A DNA stretch of 64,000 nucleotides from Prochlorococcus marinus str. MIT 9211 (GTDB lineage Bacteria; Cyanobacteriota; Cyanobacteriia; PCC-6307; Cyanobiaceae), in assembly GCF_000018585.1 (NCBI RefSeq), contig NC_009976.1, positions 863,982 through 927,981 of the forward strand, read 5' to 3'. Position numbers and translations under genes: made by a program. Position 1 is the stretch's first letter, and every line of letters begins with the position of its first letter. Under the pieces are notes generated by a model. It was not told the origin of the DNA and searched no databases. It saw only the letters and a program-made list of their open reading frames with translations. Positions 39,200 to 41,740 of the stretch are shown piece by piece.

Positions 39200-39856
39200 C
39201 TATTTTGAGGATATAGAAGCAACCTCTGCAGCAAAATCTGATTGGTCAGTTTCAATTCCTTCTCCTAGGGTATATCTTGTAAAGCGTCGGATTCTTAAAT
39301 TTTCACCAATCTGACCAGCAACTTGCTTAACGAGTTGCTCTACAGTGATTGAAGTATCACGAATAAAAGGTTGCTCTATTAAAGCTAGTTCTTTTAGCCT
39401 CTTAGAAATTCTACCAGCTACAATCTTTTCCTTAATTTGATCAGGCTTGCCAGACAGATCATCACGGCCCATCTCTATTGACTTTTCCTTATCCGAAACT
39501 TCAACAGGAATATCGTCAACAGCTACAAATTCAACATTTGGGCACGCTGCAATTTGCATTGAGATATCTCTAAGCAGACCTTGAAACAATTCTCCTCTTG
39601 CGACAAAGTCAGTCTCACAATTTAGCTCTAGCAAAACACCAACTCTTGAACCTGTATGGATATAACTGCCTATAGCACCTTCAGCTGCAACTCGGCCGGA
39701 TTTCTTCTCTGCGCTAGAAATACCTTTTTGTCTCAACCATTCAACAGCTTTCTCCATATCAGCATCCGATTCGACTAAAGCCTTTTTGCAATCCATCATT
39801 CCAGCACCAGTCTTGTCACGAAGTTCCTTAACTAATTTTGCTGTTATGTCAGGCAT
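39200..39856 (-). CDS. tsf: Elongation factor Ts
   Basis: EF-Ts exchanges GDP on EF-Tu. The 218-residue protein has the UBA-like N-terminus with the signature [16 protein letters not shown], the core motif [12 protein letters not shown] and a C-terminal helical part. It is the short, single-domain-core version seen in cyanobacteria and plastids. It follows rpsB by 99 bp, as in most bacteria, so rpsB-tsf is a likely operon; a GTAGCA/TGCTAC stem lies at the rpsB stop (39929-39956). Confidence 0.96.
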
Positions 39857-39955: not shown

Positions 39956-40672
39956 CTACTTTAGTCTTTGCCCACCTCTATGCTCATTGGAGCCATGACG
40001 TCCTTCATTTATAGCGTCTGCCAATCGGCCAAGAATGAGTTGAACTGATCTGACAGCATCATCATTACAAGGAATAGGAACTTCACAAAGGTCTGGGTCG
40101 CAATTTGTATCAAGCATTGACACCAAAGGGATATCTAGTTTACGAGCTTCTAAAACAGCGTTTGTTTCTCTTCTCTGATCAACAAGAACAACAACGTCAG
40201 GCAAGCGTTTCATCCCTTTTAAGCCTCCTAGATATTTCTGGAGTCGTTCAAGTTCATGTCTCAAGACAGAAGCTTCTTTTTTAGGCCTCATTGCAATTGC
40301 GCCACTAGATTCCATTCTTTCCAGGTCTTTTAGCCTGTCTATACGTGCTTTCATGGTGGTCCAATTAGTGAGCATTCCCCCTAGCCATCGCTGGTTTACA
40401 TAAGAAGCTCCACATCTATTAGCTTCTAGTGCTACAACCTCTGATGCTTGTTTTTTTGTCCCTACAAAAAGAAATCTCTTACCACTTTTGGCAGCATTCC
40501 TTGTCCATTTATAAGCACTGTTCATACAAACAGCAGTTTTTACGAGATCAATGATGTGAACCCCATTTCTCGCACAATAAATGTAACGAGACATTTTAGG
40601 GTTCCATCTTCTTGTCTGGTGACCAAAGTGAGCACCAGCTTCCATCATCTCTGAAAGAGTTACGACAGCCAT
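39956..40672 (-). CDS. rpsB: 30S ribosomal protein S2
   Basis: The 238-residue S2 protein shows [19 protein letters not shown], the coiled-coil insertion near residues 100-150, and the C-terminal signature [26 protein letters not shown]. It is essential for late 30S assembly and mRNA binding near the exit site. The ATG is preceded by an AT-rich stretch with no good Shine-Dalgarno motif within 15 bases; instead, the leader contains the predicted pseudoknot listed separately. Confidence 0.97.
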
Positions 40673-40679
40673 TTTTAAA

Positions 40680-40765
40680 GTTTCGGGTTGGCCTCCACCT
40701 GACAGGGATACATTATGCTGAACTGAAGAGTCAGATCAACCTAGATCACCCGAAACAGTCAGGTG
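40680..40765 (-). promoter_or_regulatory. Predicted RNA pseudoknot in the rpsB leader
   Basis: Four segments alternate in the order A-B-A'-B'. On the plus strand they are GTTTCGGGT (40680-40688), CACCTGAC (40696-40703), ACCCGAAAC (40748-40756) and GTCAGGTG (40758-40765). In the rpsB mRNA this gives stem 1 (8 bp, CACCUGAC/GUCAGGUG) and stem 2 (9 bp, GUUUCGGGU/ACCCGAAAC), which interlock as an H-type pseudoknot. The last strand covers positions -16 to -8 before the AUG, where a Shine-Dalgarno site would sit. In E. coli, S2 represses rpsB-tsf through a structured leader; the same kind of feedback here is an inference. Confidence 0.7.
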
Positions 40766-40807
40766 TGCGGAGTTTATGTACTTGGGTAATCTATCAAAAA
40801 GGTTGAA

Positions 40808-41740
40808 TCAATGCAGCCCTTGAGAATATGCTTCACGATAAATTGCTCTGACACCTATTAAATTAAGAGGCAAGCGTAAGATCTCCATGGCTAATCCTGG
40901 ATAGCCTTTCCTAATCAAGTATTGAAGTAAAGGTTTTAAGTTGGTGGTGTTAATTAACCCAAATAGTGTAAGAGTTTCCCAAATAAATCTGTGAAACAAA
41001 GTGAATTGAATTATAAAACGAACTCTTCTAGAGGGATGCTTTCGAAAAAACACCAATGCCATCTTTGCTCGTTCATGTTCTATTCGAATTAAACTTGGAA
41101 TCTGGTCAATACTTAATGCTTTATGCCAATGATAACCAACAGCCTTAGGACATTTGACCAATTCAACATTCATCCTTCGAAGCCTTTCTCCCAGCTCAAG
41201 ATCTTCCCAACCATAGAGTTTAAAAGCAGGGTCAAATAATCCTGCCGCTTCTAGAACATTCTTATCTATGGCAACATTACCAGTAGCAAAATAGGCAAAA
41301 GAAATATCACGTAGTTTGTGAGGTTCTGAAGTAGGATATTCAAAATTAGAAGTATTAATAACTGCCCCGTAAGTAAAGCAGAAACGATCACCTCTCTTAT
41401 TCCATGTATTGATAAGGCTGCGCGAATGAGAATCAATGAAAGATTCAGTCACAACCAAATCGCTATCTATAAAAATAATCACATCACCAAGCGAATTCTC
41501 TACACCTTTATTCCTACCTTGTCCAGGGCCAGCATGCAGTTGCTCTAGTAATTTCAAATGAGGAAACTTGGTTAAATTCCCCCTAAGCCAAGATGATGTT
41601 CCGTCTGTAGAGCCATCATCAACCAATACGACCTCATAACCTTTTATATCAGAGGAAAATACTTGATTCTCAAGTGCTATTAAGCACTTCTGAAGTATGG
41701 GGAGGCGATTATATGTAGGTATAACAACACTTATAAACAT
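40808..41740 (-). CDS. Family 2 glycosyltransferase
   Basis: The 310-residue GT-A-fold enzyme has an N-terminal nucleotide-sugar motif VVIPTYNR and DDGSTDGTSSW, a DxD-type FIDSD near residue 95, and a C-terminal acceptor region with GWEDLELGERL, the extended ED motif of inverting GT2 transferases. No transmembrane helix is clear. It probably makes a cell-surface polysaccharide or glycolipid. It precedes rpsB on the same strand by 135 bp; most of that gap holds the pseudoknot leader, so it is unlikely to be functionally tied to rpsB. Confidence 0.88.
   Translation of the reverse strand: MFISVVIPTYNRLPILQKCLIALENQVFSSDIKGYEVVLVDDGSTDGTSSWLRGNLTKFPHLKLLEQLHAGPGQGRNKGVENSLGDVIIFIDSDLVVTESFIDSHSRSLINTWNKRGDRFCFTYGAVINTSNFEYPTSEPHKLRDISFAYFATGNVAIDKNVLEAAGLFDPAFKLYGWEDLELGERLRRMNVELVKCPKAVGYHWHKALSIDQIPSLIRIEHERAKMALVFFRKHPSRRVRFIIQFTLFHRFIWETLTLFGLINTTNLKPLLQYLIRKGYPGLAMEILRLPLNLIGVRAIYREAYSQGLH

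Follow-up and report, generated by a model that had tools for sequence, protein, structure and literature searches.

The question raised by this locus is whether two interlocked inverted repeats in front of rpsB form an RNA pseudoknot and, if they do, how this RNA is related to the leader that controls the same operon in E. coli. The window, which is the whole stretch of 64,000 nt of Prochlorococcus marinus str. MIT 9211 DNA that was analysed, comes from a single-contig genome of 1,688,963 bases, and the S2 protein of this genome has its nearest matches in Prochlorococcus. The operon lies on the minus strand and consists of rpsB (39956-40672; ribosomal protein uS2, 238 aa, 304.7 bits with Pfam Ribosomal_S2), whose ATG is at 40672-40670, followed by tsf as the second gene (39200-39856; elongation factor Ts, 218 aa, assigned from the ORF and its sequence). 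The gene upstream of the leader, which is glycosyltransferase-like in appearance, has its stop at 40808, and the intergenic leader of rpsB is therefore 135 nt long (40673-40807).

Stems and predicted transcription start of the rpsB leader

The inverted-repeat search found exactly two perfect inverted repeats in this leader, 40680-40688/40748-40756 (9 nt) and 40696-40703/40758-40765 (8 nt), and their order is alternating, just as the preliminary description had it. In the RNA, which is read from the minus strand, the strands follow one another 5' to 3' as CACCUGAC, GUUUCGGGU, GUCAGGUG, and ACCCGAAAC, and then come UUUAAAA and the AUG. From the repeat search and covariation, CACCUGAC (40758-40765) and GUCAGGUG (40696-40703) are the 5' and 3' strands of a stem P1 of 8 bp (40765-40758/40703-40696), and, from the repeat search and covariation counts, GUUUCGGGU (40748-40756, J2-3) and ACCCGAAAC (40680-40688) form a pseudoknot helix of 9 bp (40756-40748/40688-40680). 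The last strand, said earlier to end 8 bases before the AUG, is indeed close to it but by our count the distance is 7 nt. The minimum-free-energy fold places a hairpin, P3, at 40717-40740 on the minus strand, whose sequence and length vary between species in the alignment. Just 5' of P1 is a conserved CGCA (40766-40769, minus strand), in which C6 and A7 are invariant and G5 is nearly so in the 63-row alignment, and which is CACA in E. coli.

When the leader was shuffled 5000 times with its dinucleotide composition kept, alternating perfect stems of at least 8 and 8 bp arose 4 times. In the 64-kb window, 9 of 4258 overlapping 135-nt tiles have such stems, and four of these nine tiles contain the rpsB leader element itself. 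Such rarity is not decisive alone; it is conservation that decides. Thermodynamic folding of the leader was unremarkable (z -1.95), and minimum-free-energy folding gave an alternative nested fold in which GGGUG of the pseudoknot strand pairs with UAUCC. This alternative would suit a transcription attenuator, in which the leader would form either the pseudoknot or a terminator. However, there is no terminator-like site in the rpsB leader, and neither other cyanobacteria nor E. coli have kept the GGGUG/UAUCC pairing, and we consider an attenuator very improbable. It was also observed that in picocyanobacteria a CC located 5' of the P1 3' strand, in the UAUCCC stretch at 40702-40710, is nearly invariant and could pair with the GGG of the pseudoknot strand; this pairing is not kept outside picocyanobacteria.

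The start of the transcript was predicted from an extended -10 element, TGATAGATT (TG-A-TAGATT), at 40788-40796 on the minus strand. The pattern TGnTAnnnT occurs 28-33 nt before P1 in 81 of 81 picocyanobacterial leaders as against 1.8% of control stretches. By its spacing this conserved element puts the predicted start near 40781 (40779-40782, minus strand), so that the RNA leader is probably about 109 nt long and the length of 135 given in the preliminary description holds for the intergenic stretch. The predicted start sits upstream of all four stem strands, and a start inside the leader, downstream of the 5' strands, is not supported, given that the extended -10 element lies upstream of these strands in all 81 leaders. 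A weak promoter-like match within the leader (40739-40712) falls in the variable loop. There is a further 7-bp inverted repeat, TCAACCT/AGGTTGA, at 40800-40806 and 40736-40742, which is probably absent from the RNA because it spans the predicted transcription start.

Conservation and covariation of P1 and the pseudoknot

When 80 rpsB loci of Prochlorococcus, marine Synechococcus, Vulcanococcus, and their kin were retrieved, the whole element was present in all 77 loci that had unambiguous anchors. Among the other three, one has the element together with a second TGGAGGC upstream (L044) and two end at a contig edge (L045 and L066). The conserved 3' block was present in all 82 picocyanobacterial rpsB leaders with enough sequence, and the end of the pseudoknot strand was 6-13 nt from the AUG across the picocyanobacterial leaders. 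A covariance model built from picocyanobacteria alone, R2, gave one strong match in the genome of the window, before rpsB, with 95.4 bits, and all its other matches there had E above 1. One family member, G237, matched neither the model nor an S2 protein and is uninformative.

In 63 aligned leaders, 99.1% of the cells for the 17 pairs were standard pairs, and when the partner was slid by 1-3 columns this was 27-50%. In P1, four pairs showed two-sided changes, with 46 such cells as against 18.5 in shuffles (0 of 500 shuffles), and one P1 pair was A-U in 23, C-G in 14, U-A in 11, and U-G in 10 of the 63 leaders. The cells of the pseudoknot were paired in 100% of these picocyanobacteria, but eight of its nine pairs were invariant and the sole varying pair changed from U-A to U-G. 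Since the strands hardly vary in picocyanobacteria, the covariation of the pseudoknot rests on a few distant sequences.

To go beyond picocyanobacteria, we identified rpsB in 116 genomes of the phylum and inspected another 42 leaders, L085-L126, from Cyanobacteriia. These leaders have the same layout with another P1 (CAUCCAGG/CCUGGAUG), and P1 occurs in many covarying forms, for example CAUUUAGG/CCUAAAUG and CAUCUAAG/CUUAGAUG. Their pseudoknot is UUCGGGU/ACCCGAA. Pseudoknot pairs were counted outward from GGGU/ACCC core anchors because a MAFFT alignment made across phyla from sequence alone placed AACCC one column apart in different groups. The first pair beyond the core was C-G, G-C (E. coli), or U-A (L119) and was paired in 37 of 37 distinct cases, a level that 2 of 2000 shuffles reached. 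The second, U-A, U-G, or A-U (L123), was paired in 35 of the 37 (92 of 2000 shuffles), and pairs 4 and 5 outward were not clearly above chance outside picocyanobacteria. These counts indicate that the common core of the pseudoknot is 6-7 bp and that extension to the full 9 bp is a trait of picocyanobacteria; the length of the helix is 9 bp in all picocyanobacteria and mostly 6-8 bp elsewhere. Thus, when both stems were checked for covariation, as had been proposed for this leader, P1 passed clearly and the pseudoknot core passed more weakly, its compensatory changes being few (L119, L123, and E. coli). That the repeats arose by chance, or act at the level of DNA with no RNA function, could be argued from the alternating 8/8 repeats found elsewhere in the window, but E. 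coli and all relatives with adequate coverage have kept the element, with compensatory changes in P1, and this covariation refutes it and leaves it a negligible probability.

Distant members of the phylum have mostly other leader types. In five of them (L127, L129, L130, L132, and L147) CACACGCC...GGCGGAGG resembles a diverged P1 with, at most, a short pseudoknot, little or none of which is visible. In nine others, of family f23 and near kin (L133, L135, L136, L138-L140, L143, L146, and L151), the leaders share another conserved block, UAGCCCGUAGUACAAUA or close to it, which precedes a clear Shine-Dalgarno sequence, AAGGAGAAAA; this is possibly another type of S2 leader.

Homology with the E. 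coli leader and the published rpsB motif

The preliminary description took the element to be one of separate sequence from that of E. coli, and this did not hold. R2, although built from picocyanobacteria alone, matches the E. coli rpsB leader (L082) at 275-365 with 21.7 bits, the next match in that locus being 5.5 bits, and this match overlaps the annotated t44/tff RNA. The Rfam model t44 matches the same place (L082, 261-347). In the reverse search with t44 (RF00127) the best cyanobacterial matches were again rpsB leaders, those of G280 (25.7 bits), which is also matched by R2, and G293 (24 bits), both below the threshold. At the gathering threshold (44 bits) or at E 10 there was no RF00127 match in the window, and none of 20 relatives was above the cut-off. 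In the alignment of the two elements, sequence and structure agree as CACAC-P1-GUGGAGGC-ANAACCC. The E. coli leader, which is the S2 operator, has CACAC, a P1 (CACGUAUC/GAUACGUG) paired at 8 of 8 positions, GUGGAGGC, and AUAACCCC, with GGGGU in the loop; it reads CACACACGUAUC...GAUACGUGGAGGCAUAACCCC with CCGGGGU in the loop and then has its own Shine-Dalgarno sequence. The differences are that E. coli has a longer inner hairpin, a pseudoknot of five pairs, and a Shine-Dalgarno sequence (GAGG) between the pseudoknot and the AUG.

The accessible text of Meyer et al. (2009, BMC Genomics 10:268, PMC2704228) describes an rpsB motif that has P1, P2, and P3, with J2-3 and the 3' extension that follows P1 pairing as a pseudoknot, and that occurs in Cyanobacteria, where P2 is absent or very short. 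In the leader studied here the element lies directly upstream of rpsB in the rpsB-tsf operon, P1 covaries in picocyanobacteria and across Cyanobacteriia, P3 is variable, P2 is missing or very short, and the J2-3 strand pairs with the 3' extension. The difference is in the pseudoknot, for which that text gives five pairs in most groups and which has 9 bp in the leader of the window. Going by this text, the element belongs to the known rpsB motif as one of its cyanobacterial members; the motif was already published in 2009, pseudoknot and cyanobacterial members included, and this is why the claim of a separate sequence was wrong. Two lineage details, namely, the 9-bp pseudoknot of picocyanobacteria and the lack of a Shine-Dalgarno sequence beside the AUG, do not appear in the accessible text of that paper, and our literature search turned up no experiments on the cyanobacterial element. 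In outline the leader also resembles the S15 leader pseudoknots (rpsO; E. coli and mycobacteria), in which a pseudoknot close to the start codon likewise lets a ribosomal protein repress the mRNA that encodes it (PMC10931766), but there the protein, the sequence, and the fold are different and no homology is claimed.

Shine-Dalgarno sequences and the proposed S2 feedback

In none of the 82 picocyanobacterial leaders do the 18 nt that precede the rpsB AUG contain GGAG, GAGG, AGGA, or AAGG. One of these tetramers is present in 41 of 41 leaders from other Cyanobacteriia and in E. coli, closely after the pseudoknot strand. The earlier statement that no Shine-Dalgarno motif is visible is thus correct for these 18 nt, but a conserved GGAGG is present in the linker at 40692-40696 (minus strand), 19 nt upstream of the AUG, in 82 of 82 picocyanobacteria. 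The loss of the Shine-Dalgarno sequence is not a speciality of rpsB, and we rejected that idea. It is missing from tsf in 69 of 69 picocyanobacteria as against a presence in 16 of 24 others, and in the window, where the gene set was all ATG ORFs of at least 150 aa with start positions assigned mechanically, 2 of 51 genes had a Shine-Dalgarno-like tetramer compared to 18% of random 18-mers of the window. Hence the absence is a lineage trait, and such tetramers are apparently avoided upstream of the start codons in the window. GGAGG itself was also rejected as a Shine-Dalgarno sequence, being 19 nt from the AUG and conserved where another one exists: GGAGG or GAAGG is in the linker of 41 of 41 other Cyanobacteriia and, in E. 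coli, is found beside a separate downstream Shine-Dalgarno sequence. Most likely it is structural or protein-binding.

These observations bear on whether the pseudoknot recruits ribosomes instead of repressing translation, with the fold and the GGAGG about 19 nt upstream helping the 30S subunit to load, S1 binding the pseudoknot, and the S2 feedback having been lost. Pseudoknots can be high-affinity targets of S1 (PMC10931766), and an activating role would fit leaders that all keep GGAGG and all lack a Shine-Dalgarno sequence near the AUG. However, conservation of the linker motif is just as high in relatives and E. coli, where separate Shine-Dalgarno sequences exist, and tsf and most genes of the window have neither a Shine-Dalgarno sequence nor such an element. 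We therefore hold a recruiting pseudoknot to be unlikely, though less so than an attenuator.

The reading that we prefer, with a probability of roughly 0.87, is that this is a cyanobacterial rpsB-motif member, an S2 leader with P1, a variable P3, and a pseudoknot, that is homologous to the E. coli leader and, by analogy with E. coli, would serve S2 autoregulation. The pseudoknot of the preliminary description is thus conserved and covarying, and the leader is, most simply and very probably, the S2 autoregulatory site. In E. coli, S2 represses rpsB-tsf with S1 as helper, as reviewed in 2024 (PMC10931766). By the same scheme, free S2, helped by S1, would bind the fold once it is in excess over the supply of 30S particles, and binding would stop the translation of rpsB and of tsf along with it. 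Because the pseudoknot strand ends 7 nt from the AUG, which is within the ribosome footprint, the simplest effect of a stabilised pseudoknot would be to block the 30S subunit directly. Direct blocking can only be proposed, since the S2 operator of E. coli does not include the ribosome-binding site (PMC10931766). It is possible, though we consider it doubtful, that the picocyanobacterial leader is a derived variant in which the Shine-Dalgarno sequence beside the AUG was lost, the pseudoknot was lengthened to 9 bp against the start codon, and control is by direct blocking of a Shine-Dalgarno-free start and not by the remote mechanism of E. coli.

As t44, the sole Rfam model that we found for this element, misses the cyanobacterial members, it is unannotated in these genomes, and a broader covariance model than t44 would mend this. 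The retention of GGAGG in genomes poor in Shine-Dalgarno sequences suggests that it serves in binding or in the structure. The RNA used for S2 feedback in E. coli has been kept, still recognisable in sequence, by the ocean's most abundant photosynthetic cells, and it persists here in a genome from which Shine-Dalgarno sequences have almost disappeared.
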